From Gammaproteobacteria bacterium (GTDB lineage Bacteria > Pseudomonadota > Gammaproteobacteria > Steroidobacterales > Steroidobacteraceae), in contig JANXZG010000043.1 in assembly GCA_025355645.1 (NCBI GenBank), positions 1 through 64,000 on the forward strand: a stretch of 64,000 nucleotides of DNA. The letters run 5' to 3'. The position numbers and the translations under genes are program-made. This document shows positions 16,814 to 23,416 of the stretch, in pieces. Positions within the stretch are counted from its first letter, which is position 1; every line of letters starts with the position of its first letter. The notes beneath the pieces were generated by a model that had not been told where the DNA came from, did no database searches, and saw only the letters and a list, made by a program, of their open reading frames with translations.

Positions 16814-17581
16814 TCAGCGCAGCGAGGCGAGAAAAGCGCCTGGATCCTCGCCCCGCTCCAGCGCTTCGATCAGCGCAGAGCCAACCACCACGCCGTCGAC
16901 ATGCGCCCCGAACAGTGTCACCTGGTCGCGCGAGCGGATGCCGAACCCAGCGCACACCGGGACGGGCGCGACCTTCTTGACCCGGTCCATGTAGGCGAGC
17001 ACATCCTGCGGCACGACCACGGTTTTCCCCGTGGTGCCGGTCATGGTCACGGCATAAATGAATCCCTGCGCGCCCGCACACAGGCGCGCGAGCCGCTCGG
17101 GCGGCGTGACCGGCGTGACCATCTGCACCAGCGCAAGGCCCTCGCCGTCGAGTGCCGCCTTCAGCTCGTCGCTTTCCTCGAACGGCAGGTCGGGCACGAT
17201 GAATCCTGCGATGCCCGCGGCCGCGGCATCGCGCGGCAGTCTCTTGAGGCCATAGGCAAGCAGCGGATTTAAGTAACTCATCAGCAGGACCGGGGCCGCC
17301 GGGCGCGGTGAGAGCTCGCGCACCTGCGCGATGATCCACGGCAACGAAACCCCTTGCTTCAGGGCCGCAAAGCTCGCGCGCTGGATCGTCGTGCCATCGG
17401 CCATCGGATCAGTGAACGGCACGCCGATCTCGACCACATCGCATTCGCCGGCCACTGCCTGCAGGTTGCCCGAAAACCCTGCCATATCCGGAAATCCTGC
17501 CGTCAGGAATCCGACCAGTGCGGTGCGGCCCTGGCGCTTTGCGCTGTCGATGCTCGCCGATATCTGCTGGTGCCCTTTCAC
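16814..17581 (-). CDS. trpA: tryptophan synthase alpha subunit
   Basis: 255 residues. Signature FLTAGFPDM is at the start, followed by VVEIGVPFTDPMADGTTIQRA with the catalytic Glu and Asp region. LMSYLNPLLAYG, GFIVPDLPFEES (Asp), FIYAVTMTGTTG and GFGIRSRDQV complete the barrel. It cleaves indole-3-glycerol phosphate to indole, channelled to TrpB. Two nt separate it from trpB. The N-terminus is slightly short compared with enterobacterial TrpA (268). Confidence 0.97.
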   Translation of the reverse strand: MKGHQQISASIDSAKRQGRTALVGFLTAGFPDMAGFSGNLQAVAGECDVVEIGVPFTDPMADGTTIQRASFAALKQGVSLPWIIAQVRELSPRPAAPVLLMSYLNPLLAYGLKRLPRDAAAAGIAGFIVPDLPFEESDELKAALDGEGLALVQMVTPVTPPERLARLCAGAQGFIYAVTMTGTTGKTVVVPQDVLAYMDRVKKVAPVPVCAGFGIRSRDQVTLFGAHVDGVVVGSALIEALERGEDPGAFLASLR

Positions 17582-17583
17582 GG

Positions 17584-18783
17584 TCAGGCCAGCTCCTTGA
17601 GGACCGTACGCTGCAGGATCGGCATATCCTTGTCGCCGCGGCCGGAGCAGCCGATCAGGATGCGAGCGCCGGGGTTCGCCGTGGCGAAGCGGCGCGCGCC
17701 CGCGAAGGCATGGGCGGTCTCGATCGCCGGCAGAATTCCTTCATGCTTCGCACATTCCAGCAGCGCGTCGAGCGCCTCGGCATCGGTCGCCACCTCGTAC
17801 TGCGCACGGCCGCTTTGCATCAGGTAAGCATGCTCGGGGCCGACGCCTGAATAATCAAGTCCAGCGGACACCGAATGGGTTTCCTGCACCTGGCCATGGG
17901 CATCCTGCAATATCAGCGTGTAACTGCCCTGCAGAACCCCGGGCGTCCCGGCGGTCAGCGAGGCCGCGTTGTCGCCGAGACCCGGGCCGCGCCCACCCGC
18001 CTCGATACCGAGCAGACGTACCGAGGAGTCACCGATGAAGGGATGAAACAGGCCTATGGCGTTCGAGCCGCCGCCAACACAGGCCACTGCCACGTCGGGG
18101 AGGCCGCCCGCCTGCTGCTGCATCTGCGCACGCGCTTCGCGGCCGATGACCGACTGCAGTTCGCGCACCAGAAAGGGATATGGGTGCGGGCCCACCGCCG
18201 ATCCGAGCACGTAATACGTGCCATCGGGGTCTGCAACCCAGTCGCGCAGCGCCTCGTCGATTGCCGCGCGCAACGTCTGATCGCCGCCCGTGACCGGAAC
18301 GACGGTCGCACCGAGCAGTTTCATGCGATCGACATTCGGCGCCTGTCGCTCGACATCGACTGCGCCCATGTACACGACGCATGGCAGGCCCACGCGCGCA
18401 GCGGCGGCCGCGCTGGCAACGCCGTGCTGGCCGGCGCCAGTCTCCGCGATCACCCGCTTTGCGCCGAGGCGACGCGCGAGCAGGGTCTGTCCGATCGCAT
18501 TGTTGATCTTGTGCGCGCCGGTGTGCGCGAGGTCCTCGCGCTTGAGCCAGACCTCCGCGCCCCAGCGCTTGCCCAATGTGGTTGCGCGCGTGAGCGCCGT
18601 CGGGCGTCCGGCCCAGCTCATGAGCTCGCTCGCGTACTCCGCCTGGAATCCAGGATCCGGCAGGAAGCGATCGACGCCCGCCTGCAGCCGATCGAGCGCT
18701 GGCACCAGGGTCTCCGGAACATAGCGTCCCCCGAACGCGCCATAGCGGCCCTTTGCATCGGGATGCCCGGGCGATGCGCTCAT
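17584..18783 (-). CDS. trpB: tryptophan synthase beta subunit
   Basis: 399 residues. GAFGGRYVPETLVPAL is at the N-terminus, and the PLP-lysine motif is KREDLAHTGAHKINNA. The downstream signatures AETGAGQHGVA, GGGSNAIGLFHPF and the C-terminal GCSGRGDKD are intact. It condenses indole with serine. Its start overlaps the trpF stop (ATGA), indicating translational coupling. Confidence 0.98.
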   Translation of the reverse strand: MSASPGHPDAKGRYGAFGGRYVPETLVPALDRLQAGVDRFLPDPGFQAEYASELMSWAGRPTALTRATTLGKRWGAEVWLKREDLAHTGAHKINNAIGQTLLARRLGAKRVIAETGAGQHGVASAAAAARVGLPCVVYMGAVDVERQAPNVDRMKLLGATVVPVTGGDQTLRAAIDEALRDWVADPDGTYYVLGSAVGPHPYPFLVRELQSVIGREARAQMQQQAGGLPDVAVACVGGGSNAIGLFHPFIGDSSVRLLGIEAGGRGPGLGDNAASLTAGTPGVLQGSYTLILQDAHGQVQETHSVSAGLDYSGVGPEHAYLMQSGRAQYEVATDAEALDALLECAKHEGILPAIETAHAFAGARRFATANPGARILIGCSGRGDKDMPILQRTVLKELA

Positions 18784-19400
18784 GTTTCTGCCTTTAACAG
18801 AGCTGCCGCCGCGCGCGCCCTGTTGACGAATTCGATGATCTTGGCCGGATCCTTGACGCCGGCGGAAGCTTCCACGCCGCTGCTGACATCGACGCCGTAC
18901 GGGCGCACCGCGGCAATCGCATCGGCCACGTTTGCTGGGGTCAGGCCTCCGGCCAGGATCAGCTCCGTCTGCGCCGAGAGCTCGGCAGCGCGGCCCCAGT
19001 CCGCCATCTCGCCAATGCCGCTGGACGGTCCCTCGAATAACATGCGCGCTGGCAGCGGATGCGGCGTCTTGCGGCCGAAGCGCACGACGGGAAGTATCTT
19101 GATATGCGCGGGGACCTTCAGCTCACGCAGGTCCTCCACATCGGTCTGAAAAAAATCCGGCTTCAGCGTGCGGCAGATCTCATCGACCAGGATTTGCAGC
19201 GGGTGCTGCGTGACTGCGATGCGCAGGATCCCAGGCGGCGCGAGCGCGGCCAACTGCGCCGCCTGTCGCGGCGTGACCTGGCGCGGACTCGGCGCGAATA
19301 CGAATCCAATCGCATCAACGTTCGATGCCTCGGCGGCCGTGATCGCATCGACGGTCGTGATGCCGCATATCTTTATCCACATCCGTCGGAGTGTAGCCAT
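18780..19400 (-). CDS. trpF: phosphoribosylanthranilate isomerase
   Basis: 206 residues. The family motif WIKICGITTVDAITAAEASNVDAIGFVFAPSPRQVT is at the N-terminus, with LAGGLTPANVADAI and VDVSSGVEASAGVKD at the end. It isomerises phosphoribosylanthranilate (fourth pathway step counted from chorismate with TrpE/G as first). An internal ATG at 19382 would give the common MWIKICGIT start; the upstream ATG is used because it lies 1 nt after the trpC stop. Confidence 0.96.
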   Translation of the reverse strand: MATLRRMWIKICGITTVDAITAAEASNVDAIGFVFAPSPRQVTPRQAAQLAALAPPGILRIAVTQHPLQILVDEICRTLKPDFFQTDVEDLRELKVPAHIKILPVVRFGRKTPHPLPARMLFEGPSSGIGEMADWGRAAELSAQTELILAGGLTPANVADAIAAVRPYGVDVSSGVEASAGVKDPAKIIEFVNRARAAAALLKAET

Positions 19401-19401
19401 C

Positions 19402-20232
19402 TTAGCGGCCCCCCGCGCGGGCAGTATTCAGGATTCCGGCCAGCTGCGCCGCCGGATCGCTGCTCTGCATCAGCGCGGTGCCGATCAGCGCAATGCCGAA
19501 ACCCAGCTTGCGCACGGCGAGAGCCTCCACGGGGCTGCCCACACCGCTTTCGGCAACCGCTGGCAAGCCCTTCGGCAGATGCGCGGCGAGCTCGGCAAAG
19601 CGCTCCGGCCGGACCTGAAGCGTCTGCAGGTCGCGACAATTGACCCCGATCAGGACGGTGCCGCGATCGGCGCGCGTGCGCAGCGCCAGGATAACCGCCG
19701 CGACCGCCAGGTCAGCCGCGTCGAATGCCTCTAGCAGCACGAACATGCCAAGTCGCAGCGCAACATCCATCAGCTGCGCAATGCCCTCGCGCGAGAGCAT
19801 CCTCAGGATCAGCAAGACCCCCCCTGCCCCGCAGGCACGCGCCTCGAGCACCTGGTACGGATCGACCAGGAAATCCTTGCGCATCGCGGGCACCCCAAAC
19901 GGCGCGAGCAGGCCGGCAGCCGCACGCAGGTGCTCCAGCGAGCCATCGAAGCGGCTCTCTTCGGTCAGTACGGACACGGCGGCGGCGCCTGCGCTGGCAT
20001 AGGCGCAAGCGCGACCCATCCAGTTGTCGCTCGCCTCGCCGAGCACGCCTGCGGCGGGCGAGCGCAACTTGATCTCGGCGATGACATCGAAGCCCGCTGC
20101 GGATAATCGCAATGGCGGCGCCGGTGCCTGGGCTGCGGCGCGCCGCTCGAGCGCCGCATAGTTCTCGTGCGCACTGGCCTTCGCTACCCGCAGCGCGCTG
20201 GCCGACTTCATTTGATCCAGGAACCCGTTCAC
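19402..20232 (-). CDS. trpC: indole-3-glycerol phosphate synthase
   Basis: 276 residues from a GTG at 20232 that overlaps the trpD stop (GTGA); an ATG at 20268 would extend 36 nt into trpD. Motifs: FDVIAEIKLRSPAAGV (catalytic Lys), AAAVSVLTEESRFDGSLEHL, MRKDFLVDPYQV, LLILRML, IGVNCRDLQTL and VAESGV. It closes the indole ring from CdRP. It is a stand-alone TrpC, not fused to TrpF as in E. coli. Confidence 0.96.
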   Translation of the reverse strand: MNGFLDQMKSASALRVAKASAHENYAALERRAAAQAPAPPLRLSAAGFDVIAEIKLRSPAAGVLGEASDNWMGRACAYASAGAAAVSVLTEESRFDGSLEHLRAAAGLLAPFGVPAMRKDFLVDPYQVLEARACGAGGVLLILRMLSREGIAQLMDVALRLGMFVLLEAFDAADLAVAAVILALRTRADRGTVLIGVNCRDLQTLQVRPERFAELAAHLPKGLPAVAESGVGSPVEALAVRKLGFGIALIGTALMQSSDPAAQLAGILNTARAGGR

Positions 20233-21254
20233 GCCGCTGCGCCCCATTTTGCAAGTTTGTCGAGCCATCGCTGCGCGCGGCCGCTATCGATGGCGGCAAG
20301 GGCCAGCGCGACGCCGTCGGCCGCGGATGCCGCGCGCCCGGCGATGTGCAACGCGATGCCAGCCTGCAAGGCAAGCGCCGAACGATGCGCGCCGCGATCC
20401 AGGCGGGCGAAAACCGCGCGAAGCGCGGCTGCATTGGTGCTGGCATCACCTCCGGCAAGGTCCGCAGCACTGCAGCGCGCAAGCCCCAGGCTCGCAGGGT
20501 CGATCTCCATGGGCCGTACATTCCCGGGCGTGACGTCAAACACCGCAAAGGGTCCGATGGGCGTCGCTTCATCCCAGCCCGCGGCGCCATGCACGACCCA
20601 CGCGCGGGCCAGCTGCATGCCGCTTAAAGTCGCCGCGATCAGCTGCGCCGCCGCCGTGTCGTACGCGCCGATCAGTTGATAGCGTGGCGCGGCCGGATTT
20701 GTCAGCGGACCCAGCAAGTTGAATACCGTACGCACGGCGAGCGCCGCGCGTATCGGCACGAGCGCCTTCATCGCCGGATGATAATAAGGGGCGAACAGGA
20801 ACGTGAATCCGCTGGCCTCGAAGCAGCGCGCCGCCGCTGCCTCGTCGAGCGGCAGCTTCAGGCCCAGCTGTTCGATCAGGTCGGCGCTGCCGCAGCGGCT
20901 GGAGACCGAACGATTGCCATGCTTGATGACCGGCATGCCGCAGGCGGCAGTCAGCAGCGCCGCCCCAGTCGAAAGATTCAAGCTGCCCGACCCATCGCCG
21001 CCGGTCCCGACCAGATCGATCGCATCGAGGCCCGCCGCCAGACCGGGCCGGCGCGCAAGCGAGCGCATCGCGGCGGCAAAGCCACGCACCTCGGCTGCCG
21101 TGACGCCTTTGGCCCGCAATGCCGCCAGCAGTCCGCCGGCGAGCGCCGGATGCCCTTCGCCCGCGGCAAGCCATTGCATCAACTCGCCGGCGCCCTGCTC
21201 CGACAGGTCGTTGCCGCACAGCAGGCTCTCGAGGGATTCACGCGGCGTCTGCAA
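20229..21254 (-). CDS. trpD: anthranilate phosphoribosyltransferase
   Basis: 341 residues. Glycine-rich DLVGTGGDGSGSLNLSTGAA binds PRPP, and KHGNRSVSSRCGSADLIEQLG is the anthranilate-site signature. FLFAPYYHPAMKAL and FNLLGPLTNPA follow. The start is a TTG at 21254 with GAGG 8 nt before it; the next in-frame ATG would remove about 25 residues of the N-terminal helical domain. It sits 10 nt after trpG and is not fused to it. Confidence 0.96.
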   Translation of the reverse strand: MQTPRESLESLLCGNDLSEQGAGELMQWLAAGEGHPALAGGLLAALRAKGVTAAEVRGFAAAMRSLARRPGLAAGLDAIDLVGTGGDGSGSLNLSTGAALLTAACGMPVIKHGNRSVSSRCGSADLIEQLGLKLPLDEAAAARCFEASGFTFLFAPYYHPAMKALVPIRAALAVRTVFNLLGPLTNPAAPRYQLIGAYDTAAAQLIAATLSGMQLARAWVVHGAAGWDEATPIGPFAVFDVTPGNVRPMEIDPASLGLARCSAADLAGGDASTNAAALRAVFARLDRGAHRSALALQAGIALHIAGRAASAADGVALALAAIDSGRAQRWLDKLAKWGAAA

Positions 21255-21264
21255 GGTCGGGGCC

Positions 21265-21840
21265 TCAGAGCTTCAGGAAATTGCCCATCAGGATCGGCCC
21301 GTCGGGCGTCAGCACGCTCTCCGGGTGAAATTGCACGCCCTCGATCGGCAGCGAGGTATGGCGCACACCCATGATCTCGCCCTCCGGGGTGCGAGCCGTG
21401 ACTTCAAGAACAGCCGGGATGCTGTGCGCCTCAGCAATCAGCGAGTGATAGCGTCCGGCCTGGAAATCCTGCGGCATGCCCGCGTACAGTCCGCGCCCGT
21501 CATGATGGGCCGGGGAAACCTTGCCGTGCATCAGGCGCCCGGCGCGTACGACCCTGCCGCCGAACACCTCCACCAGCGACTGGTGCCCGAGGCACACGCC
21601 AAAGATCGGGATGCGCCCGGCAAAGGCCCGGATCATGTCCATCGAGACGCCCGCATCCTTCGGCGTGCCGGGACCCGGCGAAATCACCAGGTGCGTGTGA
21701 TCCATCGCGAGCGCGGCCTCGACGCTGATCGCATCATTGCGGTACACGTCGACCTGGGCGCCTTGCATCAGGAATGCCTGTACGAGGTTATAGGTGAACG
21801 AATCGTAGTTATCGATCAGCAACAGTTTCGCTGCGCGCAT
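21265..21840 (-). CDS. trpG: anthranilate synthase glutamine amidotransferase subunit
   Basis: 191 residues. DNYDSFTYNLVQAF is at the start, then ISPGPGTPKDAG, the nucleophile loop GVCLGHQ (Cys) and the His-Glu pair in VQFHPESVLTPDG. It supplies ammonia from glutamine to TrpE. It could also serve p-aminobenzoate synthesis (as PabA) in organisms with one such subunit; the position immediately after trpE makes tryptophan the main role. Confidence 0.96.
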   Translation of the reverse strand: MRAAKLLLIDNYDSFTYNLVQAFLMQGAQVDVYRNDAISVEAALAMDHTHLVISPGPGTPKDAGVSMDMIRAFAGRIPIFGVCLGHQSLVEVFGGRVVRAGRLMHGKVSPAHHDGRGLYAGMPQDFQAGRYHSLIAEAHSIPAVLEVTARTPEGEIMGVRHTSLPIEGVQFHPESVLTPDGPILMGNFLKL

Positions 21841-21843
21841 GGC

Positions 21844-23229
21844 CTACAACCCGTCCGCCGCTAGTTCGAGCGCGCGGCGCAATACCGCGCTCTTCGCGAG
21901 CACTTCTTCATATTCGGCCTGCGGGACGCTGTCGGCGACAATGCCGCCGCCCGCCTGGTAACTGTAGGTGTCGCCCCGAAACACCAGCGTGCGGATCGTG
22001 ATTGCCTGGTCCATGGCGCCCTGGCGCCCGAAATAGCCGATCGTGCCGCCATACAGCTGCCGGCCCACGGGCTCGAGCTCGTCGATGATTTCCATCGCCC
22101 GCACTTTCGGCGCACCCACGAGAGTACCTGCGGGGAAGGTCGCGGCGAACAGATCGAACGCATCCTTGCCCGGCGCCAGCGTGCCGCTGACGCCGCTGAC
22201 TATGTGCATGATATGGCTGTAGCGCTCGATGACCCGGTAGGGATCGACATTGACCGAGCCAGCGGTGGCCACGCGCCCCAGGTCATTGCGCGCGAGGTCC
22301 ACCAGCATCACATGCTCGGCATTCTCCTTGGGGTCGCCCAGCAGTTCGCGCTCCAGCGCCGCATCGCTCTCGGCATCCTGCCCGCGCGGCCTTGAACCTG
22401 CGATAGGGCGCAGCTGCGCATGGCCTTGGTTCAGTTTGACCAGCGCCTCGGGCGAGGAGCCCACCACGGTGATATCGCCCAGCTCGCAGAAGTACATGTA
22501 GGGTGATGGATTCAGCAGGCGCAGCGCGCGATAGACCTCAAACGGCGAGAGCGCATGCGCGCCCTCAAAGCGCGAGGCCAGCACCAGTTGGTAGACATCG
22601 CCTGCGCCGATATGCTCCTGTGCACGATGTACCAGCTCAGCGTGCCGGGATTGCGACAATGAGGGCGTGGCGGGCGAGAATTTCCCAGCTGTTGCCAGCG
22701 TGGGGACGGGTCCGCGCAGCGCCCGGATGACTTCGCGCCGCAGGCTCTGTCGCTGCGCTTCGCTGCCATCGTGCAGCACGGCAACGCCGCGTGTCAGGTG
22801 ATCGAAGACTAGCAGCGAGCGCGGCGCGACGTAGTGGGCATGCGGCGCCTGCGTGGCATCGAGGCTGCGTCCGGGCAGCCGCTCGAAATAACGCACCGAG
22901 TCGTAGGCGGTGTAACCGACCAGCCCTCCGAGCAGCGGCACGCCCGGCAGATCCGGCAGGGGCTGCGGTGCAAGCGTGAGTGCGGCGCGCAACGCATCGA
23001 GAAATTCGGCGCGCGACTTCGGCCGCGGCGATTGCTGGCCGTCGATATGCATGCCTGCGGCATCAAGCCGTACCTCCAGGCAGTCGCCGAAGCCGATGAA
23101 TGAATAGCGCGCCAGGCGCTCGCCGCCCTCGACACTCTCGAGCAGGAACCTTGGCCGGAACGGCGCCAGTTTCAGGTAAGCCGATACCGGGGTATCAAGA
23201 TCAGCGGCTATGTCAAAAGGTGGCTTCAT
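21844..23229 (-). CDS. trpE: anthranilate synthase component I
   Basis: 461 residues. The N-terminal domain has the feedback-inhibition element FLLESVEGGERLARYSFIG (LLES). The chorismate-binding domain has RPIAGSRPRG, LLGDPKENAEHVMLVDLARND, HIVSGVSG, FPAGTLVGAPK and the C-terminal YQAGGGIVADS. With TrpG it converts chorismate and glutamine to anthranilate. Its ATG is 9 nt past the oligo-T of an attenuator terminator, so expression depends on readthrough from trpL. Confidence 0.97.
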   Translation of the reverse strand: MKPPFDIAADLDTPVSAYLKLAPFRPRFLLESVEGGERLARYSFIGFGDCLEVRLDAAGMHIDGQQSPRPKSRAEFLDALRAALTLAPQPLPDLPGVPLLGGLVGYTAYDSVRYFERLPGRSLDATQAPHAHYVAPRSLLVFDHLTRGVAVLHDGSEAQRQSLRREVIRALRGPVPTLATAGKFSPATPSLSQSRHAELVHRAQEHIGAGDVYQLVLASRFEGAHALSPFEVYRALRLLNPSPYMYFCELGDITVVGSSPEALVKLNQGHAQLRPIAGSRPRGQDAESDAALERELLGDPKENAEHVMLVDLARNDLGRVATAGSVNVDPYRVIERYSHIMHIVSGVSGTLAPGKDAFDLFAATFPAGTLVGAPKVRAMEIIDELEPVGRQLYGGTIGYFGRQGAMDQAITIRTLVFRGDTYSYQAGGGIVADSVPQAEYEEVLAKSAVLRRALELAADGL

Positions 23230-23237
23230 AATTCTGC

Positions 23238-23275
23238 AAAAAAAAACCCATCACCGGTGTTGTCGGGGATGGGTT
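23238..23275 (-). terminator. trp attenuator (Rho-independent terminator before trpE)
   Basis: On the minus strand an 8-bp stem AACCCATC (plus 268-275 of this block, i.e. 23268-23275) pairs with GATGGGTT (23245-23252) across a 15-nt loop. It runs into nine T residues (23238-23246) just before trpE. Upstream, GGAGTGGG near the end of trpL can pair with CCCATCCC of the terminator's left arm (7 of 8 positions, one G-U, one mismatch), giving an antiterminator. This is the classic layout for ribosome-mediated attenuation. Confidence 0.9.
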
Positions 23276-23299
23276 CTGGATTGGCGAAAATCTAAGATA

Positions 23300-23380
23300 T
23301 CAAGCGGCCAGCGCCCACTCCTTCAGGCAGGACGTGCGCCACCAGCAGCGGGGATTGCCCGAAAATATCGTTTGCGACAT
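23300..23380 (-). CDS. trpL: trp operon leader peptide
   Basis: A 26-codon frame starts ATG 23380 and ends TGA 23300-23302. Trp-Trp is at residues 13-14 (PRCWWRTS) and a third Trp at 22 (KEWALAA). Three Trp codons in 26, 25 nt before the attenuator hairpin, identify it as the leader whose translation senses charged tRNA-Trp. When ribosomes stall at WW, the downstream GGAGTGGG is freed to form the antiterminator. No clear Shine-Dalgarno precedes the ATG. The frame is open further upstream (TTG at plus 23416), so the exact start is uncertain. Confidence 0.85.
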   Translation of the reverse strand: MSQTIFSGNPRCWWRTSCLKEWALAA

Positions 23381-23386
23381 GCCATG

Positions 23387-23416
23387 AGTATCGCCGTCCG
23401 CAGTGGCCAGCGTCAA
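23387..23416 (-). promoter_or_regulatory. candidate trp operon promoter
   Basis: Minus-strand TTGACG (23411-23416, 5 of 6) and GATACT (23387-23392, 4 of 6) are 18 nt apart. Transcription would start about 23378-23382, essentially at the trpL ATG, making the leader mRNA leaderless. No TrpR operator half-site pair is evident. An alternative promoter inside the preceding gene cannot be excluded. Confidence 0.45.

Follow-up and report, generated by a model that had tools for sequence, protein, structure and literature searches.

A probable trp operon attenuator with a predicted leaderless leader peptide in a relative of Steroidobacter

The trp operon carried by the window (the whole 64,000-nucleotide stretch of DNA that we analysed) appears to be governed by a ribosome-mediated transcription attenuator whose RNA would start at, or very near, the ATG of its own leader peptide, and we would put the probability of this reading at about 0.93. 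The minus-strand stretch 23416-23238, which the initial annotation had singled out as a tryptophan attenuator, consists of a promoter, a 26-codon open reading frame, a hairpin and nine T residues, all ahead of trpE (Table 1). The reading as attenuation is now supported by conservation and covariation across the bacterial order to which the organism belongs, and the account of the leader given in that annotation has been borne out; a transcript that is predicted to be leaderless was absent from it, and is our refinement.

It is helpful to consider what lies behind the leader and in whose genome. Seven ORFs follow in one direction, trpE-G-D-C-F-B-A, separated by gaps of 1-10 nt or overlapping by 4-40 nt, and of these trpG, trpD, trpB and trpA exceed their NCBIfam cut-offs while trpE, trpC and trpF are identified by best matches that fall below them (for trpE, 480.3 bits with trpE_most, under a curated cut-off of 517.7). 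It is this gene order that suggests leader control over all seven trp genes. Within trpD, on the strand of the operon, there is also a promoter-like TTCACG-18-TATCAT (20807-20778, minus strand), against a chance expectation of 0.7 such sites for the region scanned; trpD of Escherichia coli contains an internal promoter. The enterobacterial logic of attenuation that was originally invoked appears to hold here, but TrpE identities make the host a relative of Steroidobacter and not an enterobacterium: the nearest TrpE relatives come from metagenome-assembled genomes (82-85% identity), and the nearest with genus names belong to Steroidobacter and Peristeroidobacter (74% identity), the order of Steroidobacter being Steroidobacterales.

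Table 1. Features of the trp leader and operon, in window coordinates
Feature	Position	Strand	Basis or remark
Sigma-70 type promoter, TTGACG-18-GATACT	23387..23416	-	-35 at 23416-23411, -10 at 23392-23387
Leader peptide ORF, 26 codons + TGA	23300..23380	-	Predicted leaderless
Segment 1, pairs with segment 2 in the ribosome-free full-length fold	23337..23352	-	Predicted fold
Tandem Trp control codons 13 and 14	23339..23344	-	Adjacent Trp in 62 of 63 leader ORFs of relatives
Segment 2, GGAGTGGGCGCTGG, antiterminator 5' arm, holds the Trp22 codon	23308..23321	-	Duplex, alignment
Segment 3, CCAGAACCCATCCCC, antiterminator 3' arm; its part CCCATCCCC is the terminator 5' arm	23265..23279	-	Duplex, alignment
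Intrinsic terminator hairpin; segment 4, GGTGATGGG, at 23255-23247	23243..23277	-	Fold, covariation
Nine-T run of the terminator	23238..23246	-	Ends 8 nt before the trpE ATG at 23229
trpE, anthranilate synthase component I	21844..23229	-	Best NCBIfam model trpE_most
trpG, trpD, trpC, trpF, trpB, trpA, co-directional	16814..21840	-	ORFs and NCBIfam

The terminator with nine T residues that had been claimed ahead of trpE is confirmed. Its folding energy of -15.5 kcal/mol is equalled by none of 200 shuffles, whose mean is -7.2 (z -3.7), and in an alignment of 57 leaders that begins at the first Trp codon and extends to the T run, 96.6% of the terminator cells are paired and five of the nine pairs carry two-sided changes. 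These amount to 18 two-sided cells as compared with 2.5 in shuffled alignments, and on none of five measures was the real structure reached by any of 500 shuffles. The likely reason that simple terminator scans listed nothing at the leader locus is an interruption in the long stem: what its continuous portion encloses exceeds the 8-nt loop limit of the scans. When the whole leader was folded without its last bases, the result was no better than shuffles (z 0.45). The T run on which the alignment depends was recognised by script in 58 of the 63 rows that hold a leader ORF and missed in five, and one row (L051, a near copy of L050) was left out.

The alternative pairing that was said to exclude this terminator is present too. 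GGAGTGGG and CCCATCCC pair apart from a single mismatch, and the duplex of segments 2 and 3, together with its flanking CTGG:CCAG, reaches -17.2 kcal/mol against a shuffle mean of -10.0, with 3 of 200 shuffles as good. It also recurs in relatives, where the mean z is -2.8 over 58 rows: in 43 of these at most 10 of 200 shuffles are as good, in the other 15 the duplex fails to beat 95% of shuffles, and in all 58 the best partner of segment 3 starts 15-24 nt past the start of the first Trp codon. Turning to the 57-leader alignment, the main helix (helix 1) of the antiterminator, GGAG(A/T)GGG:CCCATCTCC, is paired in 95.7% of cells and the outer helix in 66.7%. Across the structure as a whole, two-sided changes fill 17 cells, where shuffles average 4.9 and none of 500 attains 17; the count of pairs with two-sided changes is reached by 23 of 500 and that of pair types by 4 of 500. 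Sliding the antiterminator by -2 columns leaves 16 two-sided cells as against 17, with 54.6% of cells paired as against 87.1%. The hairpin between segments 1 and 2 is predicted in the full-length fold, and a partial transcript prefers 2:3; in relatives 44 of 57 rows show five or more segment 2 bases paired with upstream sequence (the fifty-eighth, L122, has no recognised segment 2), and the hairpin is weakly better than shuffles, with a mean z of -1.4 and 21 of 57 rows below -1.64.

How widely is this arrangement kept? With duplicates removed, 63 of 64 upstream regions of trpE relatives hold a leader ORF with Trp-Trp or, once, Trp-Arg-Trp; 62 of the 63 leader peptides have Trp-Trp, 42 have three Trp in a row and 32 have Trp-Trp-Trp-Arg. 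The one upstream region in which we read no leader ORF belongs to a TrpE orthologue from a member of the order with a 1.6 Mb genome (L126 in G041). Besides duplicates, L058, L060 and L066 (contig ends) and L045 (same genome as L018) were dropped, and L068-L111, which make up 44 of the 80 listed TrpE loci and are 42-48% identical, were left out. Among relatives, it had been proposed, the Trp codons and both stems should be maintained: the codons are kept in 63 of 64, and the aligned leaders point clearly to covariation in the terminator and to modest covariation in an antiterminator that is conserved. Since Trp codons, terminator and antiterminator all recur in relatives, the leader is more than a chance arrangement.

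A covariance model built from the 57 leaders, which starts at the Trp codons and is hence promoter-free, gives the window leader 76.1 bits, and its sole other match in the source genome (20.2 bits) falls on the complementary strand of the terminator already matched. It matches 125 of 147 genomes and 50 of 55 genera of the order, the sources of the model included. Across 200 genomes of the phylum 13 matched, one of them the source genome; the other 12 were rejected as leaders, none having a Trp-Trp leader ORF nearby, and 11 of these are hairpins ending in a T run (L255 is not), while a Trp-x-Trp frame at L252 resembles the final part of an ordinary gene. A class-wide reading took in 110 of 132 matched genomes (30 + 80 loci, two regions being shortened by contig ends), in which the matches were trpE-like by score and the script saw adjacent Trp codons only. 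From these 110 regions ahead of trpE-like genes in other orders of the class, three Trp-Trp leaders were kept (L132, L136 and L134); adjacent-Trp frames at L202, L151 and L220 were read and not counted as leaders, and the remaining ones were set aside from the script listing. Rfam's own Trp_leader model (RF00513) gives the window 17.7 bits, below its gathering score of 41, and on the loci of 20 relatives it listed one, at 22.2 bits.

From this anatomy we infer a start site, translation, stalling and a tryptophan response that would work as follows. RNA polymerase would start on the leader ATG or no more than a few bases away from it, and a ribosome would begin on the 5'-terminal AUG without a Shine-Dalgarno site. 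When charged tRNA-Trp is scarce, the ribosome would stall at Trp13 or Trp14 and mask segment 1, leaving segment 2 available for pairing with newly emerging segment 3; with 2:3 formed, the terminator would come too late and trpEGDCFBA would be transcribed. When tRNA-Trp is charged, the ribosome would reach the stop codon and mask segment 2, whereupon 3:4 would pair and transcription would end at about 23238, yielding a leader RNA of about 143 nt. A masking model of the window leader, which assumes a ribosome footprint of 13 nt counted from the A-site codon and RNA that has emerged up to segment 3, gives 2:3 occupancies of 0.88 with the ribosome at codon 13, 0.99 at codon 14 and 0.00 at codon 22 or the stop. 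Against the simple picture, the ribosome-free partial transcript also favours 2:3 (occupancy 0.88), and for this reason termination without translation may be leaky in the window row. Once the RNA is complete, 3:4 has the greatest stability in each of the five modelled cases, and the switch must therefore be kinetic; the choice made by the E. coli trp attenuator is kinetic as well.

The 26-codon frame, translated as MSQTIFSGNPRCWWRTSCLKEWALAA with Trp at codons 13, 14 and 22, is present where the initial annotation had placed it, and this raises the question of whether all three Trp codons, Trp22 included, act as sensors. We consider this unlikely. Trp22 is in frame in the window row, and 7 of the 19 rows in which GGAGTGGG is found are translated through it, but the other 12 retain GGAGTGGG downstream of the leader stop, and in the model, placing the ribosome at codon 22 hides segment 2, which tips the balance towards termination. 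The Trp22 codon (23317-23315) falls within GGAGTGGG, which is the antiterminator 5' arm, and because that arm goes untranslated in 12 of the 19 rows, Trp22 is probably not a sensing codon at all and instead a by-product of a conserved RNA segment. More generally, the leader stop codon comes before segment 2 in 29 of 57 rows and within or beyond it in 28. Among close pairs, the N-terminal codons of the leader show no third-position excess (55, 91 and 87 changes at positions 1, 2 and 3), so that the peptide, its start and Trp codons aside, does not look selected.

What of the beginning of the transcript? In the window the A of the leader ATG is the seventh base after the -10 element, with 6 nt between, and this promoter-to-ATG pattern occurs a single time in the 3.88 Mb source genome. 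Using an approximate sigma-70 matrix, the best-scoring promoter upstream of the Trp codons was found by script to end 6-10 nt before the chosen leader ATG in 56 of the 63 discovery rows; on hand reading, the remaining seven have an earlier in-frame start 6-8 nt past the -10 (six ATG, one GTG), so that all 63 have a start codon 6-10 nt after it. A further set of 99 regions, selected with the leader model (80 + 19 loci), gave 87 in which the script recognised the Trp site and 12 in which it was missed, and 85 of the 87 have a start at the same 6-10 nt (81 in-frame ATG, 4 in-frame GTG), two having neither; two of these further rows, L278 and L281, have leader peptides identical to those of discovery rows L057 and L059 and are probably from the same genomes. 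Taking both sets together, 143 rows had a recognised site and 20 did not, and the first ATG 3-13 nt past the -10 shares the frame of the Trp codons in 134 and lies in another frame in 3, while 6 have no such ATG; in-frame ATGs are thus found in 134 of the 137 rows that have one, where chance would lead us to expect one third. In addition, a Shine-Dalgarno 4-mer 4-14 nt upstream accompanies 1 of 134 leader starts as compared with 24 of 53 trpE starts, and 6 of 134 control windows placed 30 nt further upstream of the leader starts. These motif counts were made after an energy-based anti-Shine-Dalgarno score that showed no separation between the leader and trpE starts (medians -4.7 and -4.8). The close spacing from -10 to start and the rarity of the 4-mer lead us to predict that the leader mRNA is very probably leaderless, or else has a 5' UTR of a few bases.

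A classical attenuator with an ordinary 5' UTR, in which the TTGAC/GATACT motif would have another role (that of an operator, for instance), is an alternative reading, given that the start sites are predicted ones and that trpR, for which the source genome gave no match, was found in 23 of the 30 genomes searched, making an operator possible. We nevertheless hold it to be improbable: all 63 discovery rows have this motif as their best sigma-70 promoter, with a spacing of 16-18 nt, 133 of 134 leader starts are without the Shine-Dalgarno 4-mer, and the same script locates the E. coli trp promoter and finds the trpL ATG there 33 nt after the -10. It is highly improbable that the locus is just a constitutive leader terminator with a chance ORF, dampening transcription with no sensing of Trp, for although the Trp response is our inference and the 1:2 pairing is weakly supported, Trp-Trp or Trp-x-Trp stands in frame at a fixed promoter-to-start distance in 63 of 64 rows and the antiterminator is conserved and modestly covarying.

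The three leaders kept from other orders of the class were put through the same script. The first in-frame ATG of L136 comes 39 nt after the -10, and the best promoter score of L132 is weak (4.4), so its position says little. L134, whose genome (G159) is placed in a different order of the class, has four consecutive Trp and TTGACA-17-TACAGT, with in-frame ATGs 1 and 7 nt later; it is possibly a second leaderless trp leader in the class.

The search for trpR that found nothing in the source genome should not be read as evidence of absence, and we have rejected it as such, hisG being likewise without a match in the source assembly. In each of the 19 genomes in which both were found, trpR is the immediate upstream neighbour of hisG and shares its strand (for example, G003:C80, G011:C108 and G037:C27), and because the two adjoin in this way and neither was matched, a gap in the source assembly is likely. 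We also looked ahead of other amino acid biosynthesis genes, where ATG-started leader ORF candidates numbered 0 in 20 hisG, 7 in 18 leuA-type and 0 in 17 ilv-type upstream regions, and six of the seven leu candidates were examined further. Leu-rich leader ORFs stand upstream of leuA-type genes at L396, L398, L391 and L397, those of L391 and L396 by more than 1.2 kb. The best promoter ends 8 nt before the ATG at L396 and L398; at L391 a second in-frame ATG follows the best promoter by 7 nt, and at L397 a GATACT outside the best-scoring promoter lies 7 nt before the ATG, while L392 and L400 do not fit the leaderless pattern. Leaderless initiation may therefore not be limited to trp, and some Leu-rich leaders in the order may share it.

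It is worth setting all of this against systems that are already known. The E. coli trpL leader has segments 1-4. Like the leader described here, trpL (RF00513) places a leader ORF and then a terminator in front of trpE, and Trp-Trp-Arg-Thr-Ser is common to both peptides; unlike ours, in which 6 nt with no AAGG separate the -10 from the ATG, it has 33 nt with AAGG between them. A likeness at the start is found in Sinorhizobium meliloti trpL/rnTrpL, whose RNA 5' end is reported to be (PMC7298713, PMC10117765) the ATG of a Trp-rich ORF, just as the leader start is predicted to stand at the RNA 5' end here. This is an alphaproteobacterium with three trp operons of which only trpE(G) is reported to be attenuated (PMC7298713), whereas seven trp genes follow in one run in the window; trans roles of the rnTrpL RNA and peptide have been demonstrated in S. 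meliloti. In another phylum, PMC8079986 describes LeuL, MetL and ThrL of Streptomyces lividans as amino-acid-rich leader ORFs on leaderless transcripts, those it names as leaderless serving amino acids other than tryptophan, with termination unclear or lacking for several of the leader peptides. Leader peptides ahead of trpE and other genes are described in Corynebacterium glutamicum, no leaderless start being mentioned in the accessible part of that paper (PMC3890552), and leaderless poly-cysteine attenuators in mycobacteria are the subject of a paper cited in PMC13236596. Searches of open-access literature turned up neither a description of leaderless trp leaders from Gammaproteobacteria nor one of an attenuator from Steroidobacter.

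In kind, then, the window leader is an ordinary trp attenuator in a little-studied order, and its notable feature is the predicted leaderless start that seems to be kept throughout that order, with a precedent in another class. We lean slightly towards the idea that leaderless initiation has been selected order-wide in the trp attenuator, which would then sense initiation capacity in addition to the charging of tRNA-Trp and would free a leaderless small mRNA. What the finding means is, in the first place, that the textbook trp attenuator is extended to a little-studied order in which Rfam's model misses it. A second implication is that leaderless leader peptides of the kind known in rhizobia and actinobacteria may occur throughout a gammaproteobacterial order, and the presence within one class of trp leaders that are led by a Shine-Dalgarno site and of others that are predicted to be leaderless would offer a natural comparison for the effect of ribosome loading on attenuation.
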